From the NCBI RefSeq assembly GCF_009909195.1, contig NZ_JAAAMU010000008.1, positions 1-64,000 of the forward strand: 64,000 bases of DNA. Direction: 5' to 3'. This document shows positions 56,770-63,856 of the stretch, piece after piece. The translations under genes were made by a program, and so were the position numbers. The stretch's first letter is position 1. Each line of letters starts with the position of its first letter. Origin of the DNA: Paenibacillus sacheonensis (GTDB taxonomy: Bacteria; Bacillota; Bacilli; Paenibacillales; Paenibacillaceae). Below the pieces are notes generated by a model. The model made no database searches and was not told the origin of the DNA. It saw only the letters and a program-made list of their open reading frames with translations.

Positions 56770-57033
56770 ATGCCCAATAAACTCAAGCTCGGCTTCATCC
56801 CGCAAGAGAATCAGCTGGCCATGCTGTATACGCAAGGCGGTCCCAGAGAAGGCGCAGGGCGCAAAGGAATCGGCGGCACGCGGAAGGTGTCCTTGACCTT
56901 GACGGAGGATGATTGGGCAGCATTCGAGGCCATCTGCCAGGATCGTCCCTGCTCCAAATCCGAGCTGCTCCGCGAGATCATCCACGGCTACCTGCATTTG
57001 GCAGCGAATACGAACCACAACGAGAGGGAGTGA
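56770..57033 (+). CDS. Ribbon-helix-helix-like small protein
   Basis: The 87-residue protein has a basic N-terminal tail with GGPREGAGRKG, then VSLTLTEDDWAAFEAICQDRPCSKSELLREIIHGYL, which fits the ribbon-helix-helix pattern of a beta strand and two helices seen in DNA-binding Arc/MetJ-type proteins. AAGGAGTCC precedes ATG at 56770. Its stop is 4 bases before the ATG of the second beta-clamp gene, so the two are one operon. It may be the regulator of the clamp gene or a partner; neither is shown. Confidence 0.75.
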   Translation: MPNKLKLGFIPQENQLAMLYTQGGPREGAGRKGIGGTRKVSLTLTEDDWAAFEAICQDRPCSKSELLREIIHGYLHLAANTNHNERE

Positions 57034-57037
57034 AGCC

Positions 57038-58189
57038 ATGCTCGTCGACGTCCAGCAAGCGGCGCTCCATGCCGCCCTTCAGCGGTTGACGCCCGCGATT
57101 CCCGCTAAACCGGCTGTTCCGATTCTCGGCGGGATTCGCCTGCGAGCAGGCGCCGACGGCCTGTGGCTGACGGCCGGCAACGGAGGGATGACGATCGAAG
57201 CTCGTCTCTCTGCAGGAGCCGGTGCAGGAGATACAGCCGTCCGCCAATCGGGACAGCTCGTCGTCCCGGCGCGAACGCTGCTAGCCCTCGTCCGATGCTT
57301 GCCTGCCGGCTCCCTCTCGCTGGAATCCGCAAGCAGCTCAAGGTTGAATATTCGAACGGCAAGCGCGGTTTTCCGGTTAAGCGCGTTCGCTGCCGAGCAT
57401 TACCCGGAGCCGGCTCTTCCGGAAGCGGCCCATCAGCTGCGTTTCGAGAGCTCGAGGCTGAAGCAGCTCGTCCGGCGTCTCGCCTTCGCCGCCGCAAGCT
57501 CCGACGCCCGGCCGGTTCTGACGGGGATTTGCTGCAGCATGACGATGGCCGGCATGACCTTCACCGCAACGGACGGCGTACGGTGCTCGATGCTGCGCCT
57601 GCCTTGGAAAGCCGGCGATGCCGCAGCCACCCCTTCTTCGCGCACCATCATCATCCCGGCGCATCCGCTCCTGGCTTTCGTCAATGCGCCGAAGTACGAA
57701 GACGGCCCCGCGACGACGATGACGGCCGGATCGAACGGCGTGCGGTTCGAATGCGACGGAGTCTGTCTTCAGCTGCCGCTGCTGGAAGGCGCTTACCCCT
57801 CTCTCGACCGCATCGCCTCCGACGAACCGACCACCTTCCTCCGTCTCCAAGCGGTCGATTTGCTCCAAGCGCTGGAGCGCTCGGCCGCTTTCGCGGGGGA
57901 GCGCCGGCTCGTGAAGCTCGTCGTCCATCACGAGCGCGTAACCCTTTCCTCGCATGCCGAAGGAACAGGGGATGCCGAAGAAATCCTCCCCTTCTGCACA
58001 GTAAGCGGAATGCCACTCCAGATTACGTTTAACGGAGCCTACATGCGGGACATGCTCCAAACCGTCAGCGGAAGCTTGATTACGCTATCCTTCTCCGATC
58101 CGCGCAAGCCGATCGTCATTACCGCCCCGGCTTTCGGCGAGGATGAATGGCTTTACGTAATGACGCCGGTCCGGACCGCGGACGAATGA
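57038..58189 (+). CDS. DNA polymerase III beta-clamp paralog
   Basis: The 383-residue product is a sliding-clamp protein. All three clamp domains are present: it begins MLVDVQQAALHAALQRLTPAIPAKPAVPILGGIRL, has RLAFAAASSDARPVLTGICCSM in domain II and YMRDMLQTVSGSLITLSFSDPRKPIVI in domain III, and ends with WLYVMTPVRTADE, in which the P-x-R matches the clamp's C-terminal pocket. It differs strongly from standard DnaN and lacks the usual dnaA-dnaN setting, so it is a paralog. GAGGGAG and the neighbouring stop lead to ATG at 57038. It follows the ribbon-helix-helix gene. Confidence 0.88.
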   Translation: MLVDVQQAALHAALQRLTPAIPAKPAVPILGGIRLRAGADGLWLTAGNGGMTIEARLSAGAGAGDTAVRQSGQLVVPARTLLALVRCLPAGSLSLESASSSRLNIRTASAVFRLSAFAAEHYPEPALPEAAHQLRFESSRLKQLVRRLAFAAASSDARPVLTGICCSMTMAGMTFTATDGVRCSMLRLPWKAGDAAATPSSRTIIIPAHPLLAFVNAPKYEDGPATTMTAGSNGVRFECDGVCLQLPLLEGAYPSLDRIASDEPTTFLRLQAVDLLQALERSAAFAGERRLVKLVVHHERVTLSSHAEGTGDAEEILPFCTVSGMPLQITFNGAYMRDMLQTVSGSLITLSFSDPRKPIVITAPAFGEDEWLYVMTPVRTADE

Positions 58190-58321: not shown

Positions 58322-58342
58322 AATGATACAAAATGTATCATT
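58322..58342 (+). promoter_or_regulatory. Palindromic operator candidate before Hcp-like gene
   Basis: AATGATACA and TGTATCATT form a perfect 9-bp inverted repeat with the 3-base spacer AAA. An extra ATGATACA copy lies directly upstream. It is 27 bases before the TTG start of the first Hcp-like gene, so it probably covers the promoter or start region. Confidence 0.6.
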
Positions 58343-58368
58343 AAAATCATTCAAGGGAGCTGATCGTA

Positions 58369-58941
58369 TTGTTTAAATGTTTGCTGCCGAGACCCTTTAT
58401 CGTTATGCTGGCCCTTATGATCGCCGCACTTGCAATTCCCGTAACCGCTTCCGCCGCACCCGGGACTACGCGCATGATTCTCGAACTCGCCAATATCAAG
58501 GGCGAGAGCAAGGATGCCGGCCATAAAGGCGGCATCGAAATTTTAAGCTTCTCGTTCGGCGCAACAAACACCGCAACGGTCGTCGGAGGCGGCGGAGGCG
58601 GTGCGGGCAAGCCTCAGTATAACGATTTCAGCTTCATGAAATATTTGGATTCCTCTTCTCTGCCGCTCCTGGGTAACCTGGCGAGCGGTAAAGCGATCAA
58701 GGACGGCACGCTGTATTTCTACGGATCTGGAGATTCCAAGCCTTATCTGACGGTCAAGCTGGAGCAGATCTTCATCACGTCCAGTCAATACTCGGACTCA
58801 GCTGGCGGAAATCCCTTTACGGAATCGTTCTCGCTTCGCGCCTCGAAGATGACGTTCTCCTACCAGGCCTACGACGGGGCAGGCCGCCCGCTTCCACTCC
58901 AAACGCTGGAGATCGATCAAAACGCCGGCAAAGTCAGCTAA
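58369..58941 (+). CDS. Secreted Hcp-like protein
   Basis: The 190-residue product has a signal peptide (residues 1-30, cleaved near ASA-AP) and an Hcp domain like the type VI secretion tube protein: ILELANIKGESKDAGHKGGIEILSFSFGA, then a Gly-rich loop, then NDFSFMKYLDSSSLPLLGNLASGKAIKDGTLYF and ESFSLRASKMTFSYQAYD. No T6SS gene is in the window, and the organism appears Gram-positive. The start is TTG at 58369, with AAGGGAG 9 bases upstream. It is the first gene of a set with a small peptide and a second Hcp-like protein. Its function in a Gram-positive is unknown. Confidence 0.88.
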   Translation: MFKCLLPRPFIVMLALMIAALAIPVTASAAPGTTRMILELANIKGESKDAGHKGGIEILSFSFGATNTATVVGGGGGGAGKPQYNDFSFMKYLDSSSLPLLGNLASGKAIKDGTLYFYGSGDSKPYLTVKLEQIFITSSQYSDSAGGNPFTESFSLRASKMTFSYQAYDGAGRPLPLQTLEIDQNAGKVS

Positions 58942-58967
58942 CTTAAGATGAACGGAGGCAGATGACG

Positions 58968-59147
58968 ATGAGCTTTTCTCAAACGGAGAATTTGAAACAT
59001 GCGGGCAGCCTCAAGAACCTTAAGCGACCTTGGGAGGCCCCCGTGCTGCAGGTGCTGAGCGTCATGAAAACGGAAGGCGGTCCCGACAAGCCGTGGCAGT
59101 TCCTCCCGAACGACGGATTCTACAAACGGAACCAGTTCGACAGCTGA
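58968..59147 (+). CDS. Lasso-leader-like small peptide (59 aa)
   Basis: The peptide begins MSFSQTENLK, then has KRPWEAPVLQVLSVMKTEGGP at residues 19-39, which resembles the (Y/W)-x-x-P-x-L-x-x-L-x-V-x-x-T-x-G leader of paeninodin-type lasso precursors. The following 21 residues, DKPWQFLPNDGFYKRNQFDS with one extra residue, would be the core. Counting from the Gly after T-E, residues 7-9 are W, Q and F, so no Asp or Glu is available for the lasso ring, and no cyclase or peptidase gene is in the window. AACGGAGG lies 9 bases before ATG at 58968. It lies between the two Hcp-like genes. Confidence 0.7.
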   Translation: MSFSQTENLKHAGSLKNLKRPWEAPVLQVLSVMKTEGGPDKPWQFLPNDGFYKRNQFDS

Positions 59148-59232
59148 ATCCGCGGCGGCTCCAGCCGCCGTGCCGGAGTGCGCCGCAAACCGGCGTCTTC
59201 ATTGCAATCGTCCTATAAAGGAGTAGATCGAT

Positions 59233-60090
59233 TTGTTCGCGAGAATGCTTCAAGTGAGCCTGGCAGCGGTTATTCTGTCCGCGATCCTGCTTTTCTTCCC
59301 GTCGCAACCGCCCGCTTACGCGGCGAGCGGCGCTCCTTCCATCCTGCTTACGCTGGACGGCATCAAAGGCGAGTACTCCGACAGCAAGATCAAGGATGCC
59401 ATCCCCGTCGATAGCTATGGCTTCGGAGCCGAAGCATCCCTCTCGTCTCCCGGCGGCCAACAGGTAAAGCCGTCCTTTAGCGAGATAACGCTGGCCAAGC
59501 GGGCAGATGCCGCCTCCTTGCCCTTGTTGAAGATGCTGGCGACCGGCAAGCACGTCAAGGACGGCTACCTGTATTTTCAAACCCGCGGCGCGGATCGAAG
59601 CTTCACTTACATGATCGTGCACCTGTCCGAAATTGTCGTGACGGACTACGAGGTCGGCGGATCTTCGGAAGCCGGACTTGAAGAGACGCTGAAGCTGCAG
59701 GCCAAGTCCATGCTGTTCAAGTATACGATGCAGAAGCCCGACGGATCGGCGGGACCGACGTCGACGGTATCGATCGGCAGTCCGGCCGCCGAGACCTCCG
59801 TGCTTACCAAATACCACTTCGAGCCGATCATGGCCACCACCGCGAAGGGGTATCAGTACATCCAAGGCTTTACGGTGACGCTGCAAGCGACTGCCTCGAA
59901 CAATGAAGCGACGGGGACGAAATACCGGATCAACGGCGGGGCTTGGACCGATTACACCGGCCCGTTCGCGATCTATGCGGAAGATACGCATACCGTCGAG
60001 TACTACAGCACCGACGAAGCCGGTGACGTCGAGTCGCCGAGCGTCATGAATTTCGATGACGGAACGTTCGCCGGCAGCGGCAGTTATTGA
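59233..60090 (+). CDS. Secreted Hcp-like protein with OmpL47-like domain
   Basis: The 285-residue product has a signal peptide (1-30, ending AYA-AS), an Hcp domain (about 34-185; LTLDGIKGEYSDSKIKDAIPVDSYGFGA near the start, LKLQAKSMLFKYTMQ near the end) and a C-terminal domain YRINGGAWTDYTGPFAIYAEDTHTVEYYSTDEAGDVE that is typical of OmpL47-like beta sandwiches. Compared with the first Hcp-like protein it adds this binding-type module. The start is TTG at 59233 with AAAGGAG 9 bases upstream, the same arrangement as in the first gene. A hairpin of nested stems follows at 60114. Confidence 0.88.
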   Translation: MFARMLQVSLAAVILSAILLFFPSQPPAYAASGAPSILLTLDGIKGEYSDSKIKDAIPVDSYGFGAEASLSSPGGQQVKPSFSEITLAKRADAASLPLLKMLATGKHVKDGYLYFQTRGADRSFTYMIVHLSEIVVTDYEVGGSSEAGLEETLKLQAKSMLFKYTMQKPDGSAGPTSTVSIGSPAAETSVLTKYHFEPIMATTAKGYQYIQGFTVTLQATASNNEATGTKYRINGGAWTDYTGPFAIYAEDTHTVEYYSTDEAGDVESPSVMNFDDGTFAGSGSY

Positions 60091-60113: not shown

Positions 60114-60170
60114 CCAAACAGGAGCTGTCTTCCGCCATCTCACATGGCGGCAAGCACGGCTCCTGTTTGG
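60114..60170 (+). terminator. Nested hairpin after the Hcp-like operon
   Basis: CCAAACAGGAGC at 60114 pairs with GCTCCTGTTTGG at 60159, with an inner CCGCCAT/ATGGCGG stem. No T run follows, so it may be a transcript-end structure or a repeat rather than an intrinsic terminator. Confidence 0.55.
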
Positions 60171-60731
60171 CGTTTGCGACAACTTAATCTATGCGGATTG
60201 TTGCCTCAGCTCAGCCTTCGGGCTTGCTTAACGTGCCACGGCGACCAACGATCCGTAGCAGCCGGGCTGCCGGATCGGCTCAGGCCGATCGGTCCTGTTC
60301 GATGCCGGGTTGAAAAACGGCGCAGGCGGTTTCGTCGCGTACAATGATCTGACTTCGGGTGTCCAAGGGAGCTCCGCTCGCGCACGCCGAAGAATGCGAC
60401 TGTCCCTCGTTGATCGTGCCTTGTCTCCTGCCCGTCTCGCCGTACGGCAAGAAAATACAAGCGTGGAGAGAAGGTGAAGCTATTGGTATGATAGAGGCGA
60501 TTGGTTTGCGTTCTCGTCGCGAGACGAGAATGCAGCATTCGCCTGCTTCGTAAGCATAGGATTGGTTTGCGTGTACAACCGGAGATTGAACATGCAGCAT
60601 TCAGCCGCTTCGTAAGCATAGGATTGGTTTGCGTTCACCGACGGAAGTCGGGGAATGCGGCATTCATCCCGCTTGATCGAGCAGCAATAATTCTGCTTCA
60701 TCGAATAATACAACCAGAAAGGAGCCCATCC
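60171..60731. other. Region without gene: repeat array and regulator leader
   Basis: From 60171 to 60498 I see no gene or clear element. At 60499-60682 lies a tandem repeat, and the ribosome binding site of the Crp/Fnr gene follows at about 60717-60725. Confidence 0.7.
60499..60682 (+). repeat. Three tandem 61-bp repeats with variable hairpin
   Basis: The units begin at 60499, 60560 and 60622. Each opens GATTGGTTTGCG, then has 20-22 variable bases, then TGC(A/G)GCATTC, 4-5 bases, and in units 1 and 2 GCTTCGTAAGC-ATAG (unit 3 has GCTTGATCGAGC). The variable part forms a hairpin in each unit: 8 of 8 pairs with loop GCGA, 6 of 7 pairs with a 7-base loop, and 8 of 9 pairs with loop GGAA. Confidence 0.82.
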
Positions 60732-61238
60732 ATGCAGTTAAACAAAGGCGAGATCTTATTCCGCCAAGGGGAATCCGGCCCCCTCTTCCATCTGCGCAGC
60801 GGCCTGCTCAAAATCATGCGCGTCCATCCGGACGGGACGCCGTTTCTCGTCAATATCATCACGCCCGGAGAAACGATCCCGCATCATTCCCTCATCAGTC
60901 CGAATCCGTATTTCGGCACGGCCGTCGCGTTGGCCGCCTCCGAGATCGACGTCATCTCTGCAGCGGACTGGTATCGGCAGCTGCAGGACGATGCCGACCG
61001 GTGCCGGGAAATCGCGCTGCTGCTGCAGGACAAGCTGCGCATGATGCAGCAGCGCATCGACCAGCTCACGCAGATCGCGCCCGCGGATAAGCTGCGCAAG
61101 CTGCAGGCCTGGTTTCACTTGTATATCGGCGAGGCGCCGCTGACGGACGTGCTGACGCAGGACGAGGTCGGCCAGCTGATCGGCTTGCGCCGCGAAACCG
61201 TCAACCGGCTCCTCCGCGTCCAACGAGCCAAGTCTTGA
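60732..61238 (+). CDS. Compact Crp/Fnr family regulator
   Basis: The 168-residue product has a short cyclic-nucleotide-type sensor (KGEILFRQGESGPLFHLRSGLLKIMRVHPDGTPFLV) and a C-terminal HTH (VLTQDEVGQLIGLRRETVNRLLR). The recognition helix has R154-E155-T156-V157-N158-R159, which matches E. coli CRP R180-E181-T182-V183-G184-R185, so a TGTGA half-site is expected. Compared with about 220-residue relatives it lacks the N-terminal helix and ends right after the recognition helix; a repeat array begins 4 bases after the stop. GAAAGGAG leads to ATG at 60732. Local target candidates are the flavohemoglobin gene and its CRP-type site. Confidence 0.85.
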   Translation: MQLNKGEILFRQGESGPLFHLRSGLLKIMRVHPDGTPFLVNIITPGETIPHHSLISPNPYFGTAVALAASEIDVISAADWYRQLQDDADRCREIALLLQDKLRMMQQRIDQLTQIAPADKLRKLQAWFHLYIGEAPLTDVLTQDEVGQLIGLRRETVNRLLRVQRAKS

Positions 61239-61241
61239 CTC

Positions 61242-61321
61242 CCCTGCCCTGCCTTGCCTTGACCTGCCTTGCCCTGCCTCGCCCTGCCCTGCCTTGCCCT
61301 GCCTCGCCCTGCTCTGCATTG
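61242..61321 (+). repeat. Degenerate pentanucleotide array
   Basis: Sixteen consecutive 5-base units follow the pattern C-C-Y-Y-G with minor changes (CCCTG, CCTTG, CCTCG). It begins 4 bases after the stop of the Crp/Fnr gene and ends 46 bases before the hmp stop, between two convergent genes. Confidence 0.85.
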
Positions 61322-61366
61322 CACATTCCCGCATTGCCGGTTCTTTCCCATCCCCCAAAGCCAGCC

Positions 61367-62584
61367 TCAATCCAGCGCACCGGCCGGACCGAAGAACTCA
61401 AAGCGGCGGTCTTGCGCCGGAACGCCCCAATCCTTCAGCGCCCGATTCACCGTCTGCATGAAAGGCTGCGGCCCGCAGAAGTAGAATACGGCCTCCTTCG
61501 AGGCAACGACCTCCTGCAGCCACGGAAGGTCGATCCGGCCTTCTTTGTGGTACGCGCCCGCTGCCCGGTCATCCGCCGTAGGCGCGGCGTAGATCCAGAA
61601 GGTCGAGAATTCCGGCCGCCCGCTCACCATGCCTTCGACTTCATCCTTCAACGCATGCATGCCGCCATGCTGCGCGGCATGAATGAACGTTACGCTCCGT
61701 GCCGGCCGTTCCTCCGCAAGCGTCCGCAGCATGCTCACCATCGGCGTCAGACCCACGCCTCCGCTGATGAGCACGACGGGACGCGCATCCGTCCGATCCA
61801 GTTTGAATTCGCCGGCAGGCGCGGACACCTGCAGCACGCTTCCTTCTTGAACGTCCGCATGCAGGTAGACGGACACTCTTCCCGCCTGACGATCATCCGC
61901 CGTATTTTCCCGTTTCACCGAGATACGGTAATACGCGGCCCCCGGGTGCCCCGACAGACTGTACTGCCGAATGTGGGTGTGCTCTTCGCCCGGAATGTCC
62001 ATTTTAACGCTGATATATTGTCCAGGCTCGAAATCCGCGATGGCTCCGCCGTCCACCGGCTCCAGATAAAACGACGTAATGACCTCGCTCTCCTGTACCT
62101 TCCTCGCCACCTTGAAGGGACGATAACCTTCCCAGCCGCCGGGCTGCGACTCGGCCTGCCGGTACATCTCCGCCTCCACGCCGATAAACGCATCCGCGAT
62201 AATGCCGTACGCTTCCGCCCATGCGCCCAAGATCTCATCCGTCGCCGCATCGCCCAGCACGTCCTTGATCGCGCCCAGCAGATGTTCCCCGACGATCGGA
62301 TAATGCTCCGGCTTAACGCCGAGGCTCCGATGCTTGTGCGCGATGCCCCGGACGACCGGCAGAATGGCCTCCAGCTTCTCGATGTTCACGGCTGCCGCGT
62401 AGACCGCGTTCGCAAGCGCCGTCTGCTGCCTGCCCTGCTTCTGATTCGCGTGGTTGAATATATTCAGCAGCTCCGGATGACTTTGGAACAGCCGCTCGTA
62501 GAACCGTTTCGTGATCGTCGTTCCGTGGATCTCCAGCACCGGTACCGTTGCTTTGATAATATCAATGTTGGCTTGGCTTAACAT
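61367..62584 (-). CDS. hmp: Flavohemoglobin, nitric oxide dioxygenase
   Basis: The 405-residue enzyme converts NO to nitrate with O2 and NAD(P)H. The globin domain (1-140) has KRFYERLF with the distal Tyr, [15 protein letters not shown] with the proximal His, and [11 protein letters not shown]. The FAD-binding domain has [10 protein letters not shown] and the NAD domain [12 protein letters not shown] and [13 protein letters not shown]. The length equals known Hmp proteins. ATG at 62584 follows GAGG. Its promoter has a TATACT -10 and no -35, but a perfect CRP-type palindrome at the class II position. It is convergent with the Crp/Fnr gene and divergent from the globin sensor. Confidence 0.96.
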
Positions 62585-62629
62585 GCTTGAACGCCTCGCT
62601 TTCCTCTTGCGTGTATTGGATATGGCTTA

Positions 62630-62673
62630 AGTATAAGGCCCGGCAGCCGACTGGACTGTGATTGCAATCACAG
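62630..62673 (-). promoter_or_regulatory. hmp promoter with CRP-type palindrome
   Basis: On the minus strand the -10 is TATACT (62635-62630). The -35 region (62653-62658) reads CAGTCC and is not recognisable. The 18-bp palindrome CTGTGATTGCAATCACAG at 62656-62673 is perfect and matches TGTGA-N6-TCACA. Its centre is about 41.5 bases upstream of the inferred start (near 62623), the usual position for class II activation. Confidence 0.75.
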
Positions 62674-62854
62674 CGTTTGGGAACAAACGGTGACAGCAGG
62701 ACAAATCAGCGGATTATGAAGGCGAAGTAAGTCCATTTATTGAACTCCCCAGGCAGCGAATTCGCCATAAGCTGGTAATTACGAAGGAATATGATGGATA
62801 TTGTCGAATGAAATAAGCATAAATGTAGGCCTTACCTACCAGGGGAGATTAACG

Positions 62855-63856
62855 ATGACGATTCAATTGAACGAACAACGCAAAAAACAGCTTGCTTATA
62901 TCGGCATTACGGACGAGGATTTGGCGTACCTGCACGGAAAACGCGAGCTTTTTGAACAAATCACGAGCCAGGTGGTCGACCAGCTGTACGAGCAAGTCGT
63001 GGCCGTTCCCGAGCTGTCGGCCATTATCCGCCAGCACAGCACGCTCGACCGGCTCAAGGAAACGCAGCGCTGGTACTTCATGTCCTTGACGAACGGCGTC
63101 ATCGACGAGGCTTTTATCGAGCGCCGCATTCTGATCGGCAACATCCATTCCCGGATCGGACTGACGACGGACTGGTATTTGGGCACCTATATGCTCTATC
63201 TCGACACGGCCGTGCAGCATTTCAAGCGCATCGCTCCGGATTCGTGGATGACCATTATCTTGGCGCTGTCCAAAATGTTCAACCTCGACTCCCAGCTGGT
63301 GCTCGAAGCCTACGAGAAGGACGAGAAGGATAAAATCCAGGCGCTGTCGGATGCCAAACAGACGACGCTGACGACCATCAGCCGAATCGTTCAAGAGCTC
63401 TCGGCCATGATCGTGGAACTGAGCAGCAGCAGCCAGTCCGTCGCGGATTCCGCCACCCATACGGCAGACATCCAGGACCAGGCGAACGTCAAAGTACGCG
63501 AGCTGCAGTCCAAGATCGGCGAGATCGACGGCATCGGGTCGCTGCTCCAGGAAATCTCCGACCAAAGCCAGCTGCTCGGCATCAACGCCGCCATTGAAGC
63601 GGCGCACGCAGCCGATCACGGCCGCGGCTTCGGCATCGTCGCGAACGAGATCCGCAAGCTGGCCAGCCATTCCAAGGAGTCGCTGGTCACCGTGCGCGAA
63701 AAGCTGCAGGAAATCACGGGCGTCATCGGCGAGGTCATGCAGGACGCCGAACGGACGTCCACGCTGGCGCGCGACCAGGCCGCGAGCTCGCAGGAGCTGA
63801 CGTCCTTCGTGCAAATGATCGAGACGATCACCTTGGAGCTCGAGAGCATCCAATAA
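62855..63856 (+). CDS. Globin-coupled chemotaxis-type sensor (HemAT-like)
   Basis: The 333-residue product joins an N-terminal sensor globin (1-165; QRWYFMSL, and NIHSRIGLTTDWYLG with His98 as the probable proximal ligand) to a methyl-accepting signalling domain (EISDQSQLLGINAAIEAAHAADHGRGFGIVANEIRKLA). It has no membrane segments, so it is a soluble heme sensor, of O2 in B. subtilis HemAT and possibly NO here. It is shorter than HemAT (432), mainly in the signalling helices. AGGGGAG leads to ATG at 62855. It is divergent from hmp, with 270 bases between the starts. Confidence 0.93.
   Translation: MTIQLNEQRKKQLAYIGITDEDLAYLHGKRELFEQITSQVVDQLYEQVVAVPELSAIIRQHSTLDRLKETQRWYFMSLTNGVIDEAFIERRILIGNIHSRIGLTTDWYLGTYMLYLDTAVQHFKRIAPDSWMTIILALSKMFNLDSQLVLEAYEKDEKDKIQALSDAKQTTLTTISRIVQELSAMIVELSSSSQSVADSATHTADIQDQANVKVRELQSKIGEIDGIGSLLQEISDQSQLLGINAAIEAAHAADHGRGFGIVANEIRKLASHSKESLVTVREKLQEITGVIGEVMQDAERTSTLARDQAASSQELTSFVQMIETITLELESIQ

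Follow-up and report, generated by a model that had tools for sequence, protein, structure and literature searches.

Two described classes of peptides come closest to the small precursor that is the subject of this work. The first is that of the lasso peptides of the paeninodin type (NF033524; PadeA, PbaA), with which this precursor has in common a WxxPxL leader, a Thr before the cleavage site and a C-terminal Ser. Published reports indicate that the paeninodin RRE PbaB1 prefers WxxP leaders (PMC13381572), that a conserved Thr in the penultimate position of the leader is a recognition feature (PMC10368454), and that the linear precursor of paeninodin is phosphorylated by PadeK on its C-terminal Ser, where in pseudomycoidin PsmN puts a hexose (both PMC9266682). 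The second class is that of the linear polyphosphorylated peptides (LPPs), for which one report (PMC13381572) describes a similarly lasso-like leader, the absence of a ring and a precursor presented by an RRE, in this case one that prefers YxxP leaders. According to the same report, LPP leaders conform to YxxPxVLxHQxIxFETxxS, the LPP clusters contain their own RRE, a signal-peptidase-like protease and a kinase, and in LppA the third core residue is the Ser that is modified; in contrast, the leader of the peptide found here, WEAPVLQVLSVMKTE, departs from the LPP motif, and its conserved Ser is C-terminal. It also mentions that in P. alginolyticus one RRE gene of the LPP cluster, one of the lasso cluster and one exopolysaccharide-related gene rise together in stationary phase, and describes the role of both paeninodins and LPPs as unknown.

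The peptide is encoded in a cassette of the 64,000-nucleotide stretch of Paenibacillus sacheonensis DNA analysed here (the window), which corresponds to contig C45 of a host genome of 7.4 Mb in 46 contigs. The cassette includes three genes of the forward strand, i.e., Hcp1 (58369..58941, 190 aa), the lasso-leader-like precursor that matches NF033524 (58962..59147, 61 aa), and Hcp2 (59233..60090, 285 aa). Both Hcp genes start with TTG, with the layouts AAGGGAG-CTGATCGTA-TTG and AAAGGAG-TAGATCGAT-TTG, and by inspection both products begin with a signal sequence of the Sec type; Hcp2 has in addition a C-terminal beta domain (59785..60087, forward strand, delimited by alignment) with the tail NFDDGTFAGSGSY, and this element is common to the partners of the peptide. 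For the peptide, the second ATG (58968) suits the ribosome binding site better than the first, making a product of 59 aa the likely one. Its leader motif, W-x2-P-x-L...T-x (59031..59075, forward strand), is of the RRE-binding type, with cleavage expected after T-x, and the predicted core region GGPDKPWQFLPNDGFYKRNQFDS (59076..59144, forward strand) ends in Ser. An earlier sequence-only reading had described these three frames, their TTG starts and near-identical ribosome-binding-site spacing, all of which were confirmed on the sequence. The two Hcp domains were likewise verified (PF05638, E 9e-28 for Hcp1 and 1.4e-17 for Hcp2), as were the paeninodin-like leader (NF033524, E 1.4e-5, 24.7 bits, below the 27-bit cut-off) and the lack of a ring acid, positions 7-9 of the core being W-Q-F.

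Directly upstream of the cassette lies a gene for a DnaN-like sliding clamp (56909-58189, forward strand), and a similar gene precedes a solitary Hcp1 in another genome (G014, L018), both identified by inspection. On the 3' side of Hcp2, the inverted repeat AAACAGGAG...CTCCTGTTT (60117..60168, forward strand) reads as a possible terminator, and a terminator scan gave no call for it. Further on, upstream of a Crp-family gene, GATTGGTTTGCGTTC occurs three times (60499-60636; copies 87-100% alike and 61-62 bases apart, two of them inside a 54-base repeat). The region 60501-63856 encodes this Crp-family regulator, a flavohaemoglobin and, by inspection, a globin-sensor-like methyl-accepting protein, which perhaps form a nitric-oxide or oxygen response set.

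The distribution of the peptide was determined with a profile made from three members (A1), which was searched against 394 genomes of the family. Matches at E<=0.01 occur in 162 of them, and near-full-length matches (E<=2.5e-8) at 49 places in 47 genomes; the weaker matches listed cover mainly the leader, and all eight that were inspected (L088-L095) are lasso precursors. A second profile, built from 27 members (A4) and searched in 388 genomes, separates the peptides from the lasso precursors, since 48 places match at E<=3.8e-17 and the next match is at 4e-8. Outside the family, an order-wide search of 349 genomes gave eight with matches at E<=1e-7; five of these were inspected, and in four (G411, G423, G414 and G442) the peptide adjoins an ORF with the C-terminal domain, while the fifth (G404) has an apparent lasso precursor with no such neighbour. 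A plasmid-borne peptide was rejected after a tblastn search of 72,556 plasmid records at E 1e-3 yielded nothing. A search of the open-licence PMC literature found no title or abstract on the peptide family or on a lasso-leader/Hcp pair. NF033524 is matched by 26 of 27 members at E<=0.01, and among six relatives scanned singly, three reach its cut-off (one at 27.1 bits), over the leader part; as judged from these alignments, NCBIfam covers only the leader of this family.

Comparison of 29 members selected from the places above with 11 lasso precursors from the same bacterial family, three of them from the host genome, revealed which parts of the two are alike. In all 29 peptides and all 11 controls, a Thr lies exactly 13 residues past the leader Trp and the last residue is Ser. 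The core of the peptides follows instead the pattern W-x-[FY]...S, and an acid is present anywhere in positions 7-9 in 5/29 of them, two at position 9, versus an Asp at position 9 in 11/11 controls. By this comparison, the family has the leader and tail of paeninodins and a replaced ring-forming part, and a canonical lasso core was ruled out by positions 7-9. An atypical lasso or macrolactam, in which an acid seven residues past the core Trp (W+7) accepts the ring bond and the cut site is unusual, seems quite doubtful to us: such an acid is found in 27/29 peptides, and in two short-core ones (G008 and G020) it coincides with position 9 counted from T-x, the place of the Asp in the lasso controls, but in other members the distance from T to W varies, leaving the acid in variable positions, and W+7 is a Gly in the window member, which also has no acid at 7-9. 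On sequence grounds, the peptide lies outside both the lasso and the LPP definitions that were applied.

A recurrent feature of the surroundings of the peptide is a secreted partner. A same-strand ORF with the C-terminal domain of Hcp2 adjoins it in 48 of the 49 places; in one genome (G132; L064, L220) the peptide is present and no ORF with this domain was found. Counting from the longest-frame start, partner and peptide lie within 100 bases of each other or overlap in 36 of 38 measured pairs; two partners with apparently interrupted frames start 0.45 and 0.95 kb off (L051 and L070, respectively), and another is cut by a contig end (L079). The N-terminal parts of the partners are varied and consist of Hcp (12/49 places), carboxypeptidase-regulatory repeats, SLH domains or a lectin-like fold; a domain scan of nine partners identified two Hcp, five CarboxypepD_reg, one SLH and one Laminin_G_3. 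None of nine lasso precursor loci inspected has a neighbour with the C-terminal domain. In the reverse test, carried out in 22 genomes of genus g1, nine places match the C-terminal profile to at least position 96 of 100 and eight of them have the peptide alongside. The peptide was absent from all the remaining loci retrieved, 20 in number, whose matches to this profile are partial. The short-core peptides of G008 and G020 were noticed through this test; they fall below the strong A1 matches, that of G008 reaching 4.6e-7 with A4. An attenuator-type leader ORF was rejected because in 10 of the 38 pairs the partner comes first and the peptide second. By alignment, the C-terminal beta domain proves to be the conserved link between the peptide and its partners. 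Core divergence correlates at 0.55 with the N-terminal part of the partner, where unlike kinds align improperly, and at 0.32 with the C-terminal domain; the core tracks the N-terminal part more closely, which may speak against simple recognition of the C-terminal domain.

In the window this partner is Hcp2. The predicted structure of the Hcp1 monomer (AF2, pLDDT 83.6) has as its best Foldseek match in the PDB the Hcp of P. aeruginosa (1y12, TM 0.90 on target). The model of Hcp2 (pLDDT 65.3, built on four sequences), of too low a quality to read in detail, also gives Hcp proteins as its best PDB matches. The C-terminal beta domain of Hcp2 matches NF047446 (E 1.1e-12), and a sequence search of the PDB with this domain returned a single match, an engineered FN3 fusion (E 0.013). 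Domain and predicted fold liken the window proteins to the Hcp/TssD of type VI secretion (PF05638), from which they differ by the Sec-type signal, the extra C-terminal beta domain on one of them, and a host genome devoid of a sheath gene. In effect, VipB/TssC has no match in the host genome, with E. coli as a positive control, so the cassette is not a type VI apparatus, in agreement with the earlier statement that the Hcp pair is no part of one, and the candidate of a T6SS component was discarded. A defence system was discarded as well, since PADLOC gave no match at E 0.01.

Hcp genes are found in 33 of the 394 genomes, and two of them together in 13; the peptide accompanies the pair in 12 of these. 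The remaining one, P. lycopersici (G007), has the Hcp pair with no intervening peptide and carries the peptide elsewhere in the genome beside another partner. Named carriers of the triplet are P. artemisiicola MWE-103 and Cohnella sp. JJ-181. In 26 other named records with Hcp relatives, mostly from Proteobacteria and Acidobacteria, the peptide was absent from the stretches examined, and a third Hcp gene of the host genome (C3, L002/L102) adjoins neither a lasso-leader peptide nor the operator described below. The co-conservation of Hcp and peptide that had been proposed holds for genomes with an Hcp pair, but not for the peptide at large, as Hcp as a constant partner was ruled out by 37 of the 49 places, where none occurs in the stretch read. 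Seen in this way, the Hcp-centred view is too narrow, given that other partners keep the same C-terminal domain. The model first advanced for this DNA, in which Hcp rings carry or protect the peptide in an export or toxin-like device, is on these results very improbable. It would suit the 12 genomes with Hcp pair and peptide and the predicted Hcp fold, but it is at odds with those 37 places, with the lack of both a PADLOC match and a sheath gene, and with the low dN/dS of the core in relatives, which is unlike that of diversifying toxins; none of the tests run here supported it.

Regarding the enzymes that could mature the peptide, when the host genome's own copies served as BLAST references, neither the 64-kb window nor 66 other cassette-type loci (472 kb with the window, many loci being just 3 kb long) contained an ORF resembling B1, B2, the cyclase or the kinase. 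The host genome has two lasso loci, on contigs C2 and C42, with proteins assigned to B1 (NF033536, E 3e-38) and B2 (NF033537, E 8e-30 and 4e-28), and cyclase-like (NF033535, below the cut-off) and HprK-like kinase proteins (weak matches, below the cut-off). The C2 locus (L281 3337-19087, at approx. 83-99 kb of the contig) includes precursor, cyclase-like and kinase-like genes, two of each, and, unlike C42, has no GATACA operator. The earlier remark that no lasso enzymes are near is thus correct for the window, but these two loci, and one cassette in cis, qualify it. In the genome with this cassette (G206; L324 11306-19996, seen on a widened stretch), the peptide and an SLH-domain partner lie directly after a lasso operon, in the one-strand order cyclase, lasso precursor (with Asp9), kinase, B1, B2, NTP-transferase-like gene, ABC transporter, SLH partner with the C-terminal domain, and peptide; here the lasso markers were assigned by BLAST to the host genome proteins and the other genes by inspection, as were genes on the other flank that resemble an exopolysaccharide operon.

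The presence of B2, defined as PF13471 at E<=1e-8, was recorded in 261 of the 394 genomes, including all 47 with the peptide versus 214 of the 347 others (G008 and G020 being counted among the latter). Likewise, B2 is present in 13/13 genomes with an Hcp pair, G007 included, versus 6/20 of the rest of the Hcp genomes, and in g2 (taken as Cohnella on the basis of G043) in 7/7 Hcp genomes with the peptide and 0/10 without it. The relatedness of the genomes and the wide occurrence of B2 in the family make this co-occurrence weaker than the raw p suggests. The product of the within-genus tail probabilities is 4e-5, with g2 as the only genus significant by itself (0.002), and the limits of g2, g9 and g15 were taken from listings. 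On our reading, the peptide is probably matured by lasso enzymes that are usually encoded elsewhere in the same genome.

A second connection with the lasso operons is a putative operator, the palindrome GATACA-AAA-TGTATC (58325..58339), which ends 29 nt ahead of the TTG of Hcp1 and is the sole match with <=2 mismatches in the window (expected 0.06). When 55 cassettes were scanned from 400 bases upstream to 90 bases into the longest frame, the exact site was found in 33 and a site with <=1 mismatch in 45, as compared with 0.0 and 0.1 per set in shuffles; no site was found at the other 10, two of which have little upstream sequence. The 1.29 Mb of the host genome that was scanned contains three sites with <=1 mismatch, i.e., at the window cassette, where the C42 lasso operon begins (a sulfotransferase-like gene) and before a UDP-glucose-dehydrogenase-like gene of C42, and none of 59 background 20-kb stretches of this genome has one. 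For peptide genomes, 20 lasso regions of 20 kb each were picked by hand, and the exact site occurs in 16 of them and one with <=1 mismatch in 18; in 18 it lies just ahead of a cyclase or sulfotransferase gene (12 exact, gene names by inspection), and several g2 regions show a further site ahead of a Wzz-like gene, also named by inspection. The corresponding numbers for lasso regions of genomes with no strong peptide are 6/20 and 9/20, and a single shuffle of the 40 regions gave 0 exact sites and 1 with <=1 mismatch. The operator is absent from the C2 lasso locus and from the G206 region. Lone Hcp loci have a site (<=1 mismatch) in 7/19 cases, 5/6 in genomes with B2 and 2/13 in genomes without it. 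Several g5 genomes have a second exact copy approx. 290 bases farther upstream (L043 1144-1158, L053 1132-1146). In the g5 lasso operons and before the g2 Wzz-like genes (L284-L300), the palindrome often comes directly after TTGACA, and because of this it may fill the spacer of a promoter.

Of the 49 peptide frames, which had been expected to be unbroken in relatives, one (G157) is interrupted by an in-frame stop before the leader motif. Estimates of dN/dS were 0.078 and 0.079 in two g5 groups and 0.32 in g2, the window's own subgroup being too small and outside this set; in the three groups the value of the core is below that of the leader. The triplet recurs in other genera, and with purifying selection in three groups of relatives it appears to be more than chance; the idea of a conserved set of secreted protein and lasso-leader peptide that is not a canonical lasso locus was borne out. 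It could be argued that the leader motif is a relic, and that the peptide acts with no enzymatic maturation as a small chaperone-like or co-secreted partner. This would agree with cassette loci empty of lasso enzymes, with a core under tighter constraint than the leader, and with the partner found beside the peptide almost everywhere; yet it leaves unexplained the exact leader register and C-terminal Ser in 29/29 members, the co-occurrence with B2, the operator shared with lasso genes and the G206 gene row, and we consider it rather unlikely.

The reading that we favour, and hold to be fairly probable, is that of an orphan RiPP-like precursor, distinct from lasso peptides, that is read by the paeninodin machinery, shares its regulation with lasso genes and probably with those for exopolysaccharide, and acts outside the cell with a secreted partner. 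It is based on features seen in the sequences: the leader and C-terminal Ser, the pairing, the enzymes in the same genome and in one case in the same gene row, the shared operator-like site and selection in relatives. With the paeninodin-type lasso peptides, the family shares the operator-like site, common in many genomes, and one gene row (G206), whereas it differs by the lack of the core Asp9, an aromatic core, enzymes that are usually not adjacent and the pairing with a secreted protein. According to the favoured reading, the WxxPxL leader would be bound by the paeninodin-type RRE protein B1 of a lasso locus located elsewhere in the genome, the HprK-like kinase of this locus may phosphorylate the C-terminal Ser, and the protease B2 would cleave after T-x. 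With no acid at core position 9, the lasso cyclase would be unable to form the usual ring, and the product would be linear or modified differently. After export, the peptide would act extracellularly together with the secreted protein encoded by its neighbour, Hcp2 in this case, in an envelope or exopolysaccharide programme governed by the common operator. We infer all the steps past transcription, from binding, cleavage, phosphorylation and export to contact with the partner and a role in the matrix, and contact with the partner is the weakest of them.

A bolder proposal, which we regard as unlikely, is that the paeninodin machinery processes both its own lasso peptides and a set of dispersed linear peptides, each dedicated to one secreted scaffold. 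The matured peptide, its C-terminal Ser bearing either phosphate or a phospho-sugar, would dock on the scaffold encoded next to it, be this an Hcp, lectin-like, SLH or repeat protein, and would tie it to exopolysaccharide, being a structural adaptor and not an antibiotic; if this is true, the family could constitute a new RiPP-like class. If the favoured reading is true, a RiPP pathway serves precursors scattered far from its own gene cluster, and genome mining centred on clusters would miss such precursors or call some of them lasso peptides, as NF033524 does. Gene position links the family to surface-type proteins and the operator links it to lasso operons, which would make the question of the roles of paeninodins and LPPs directly testable and may offer a new handle on the extracellular role of peptides with lasso leaders.
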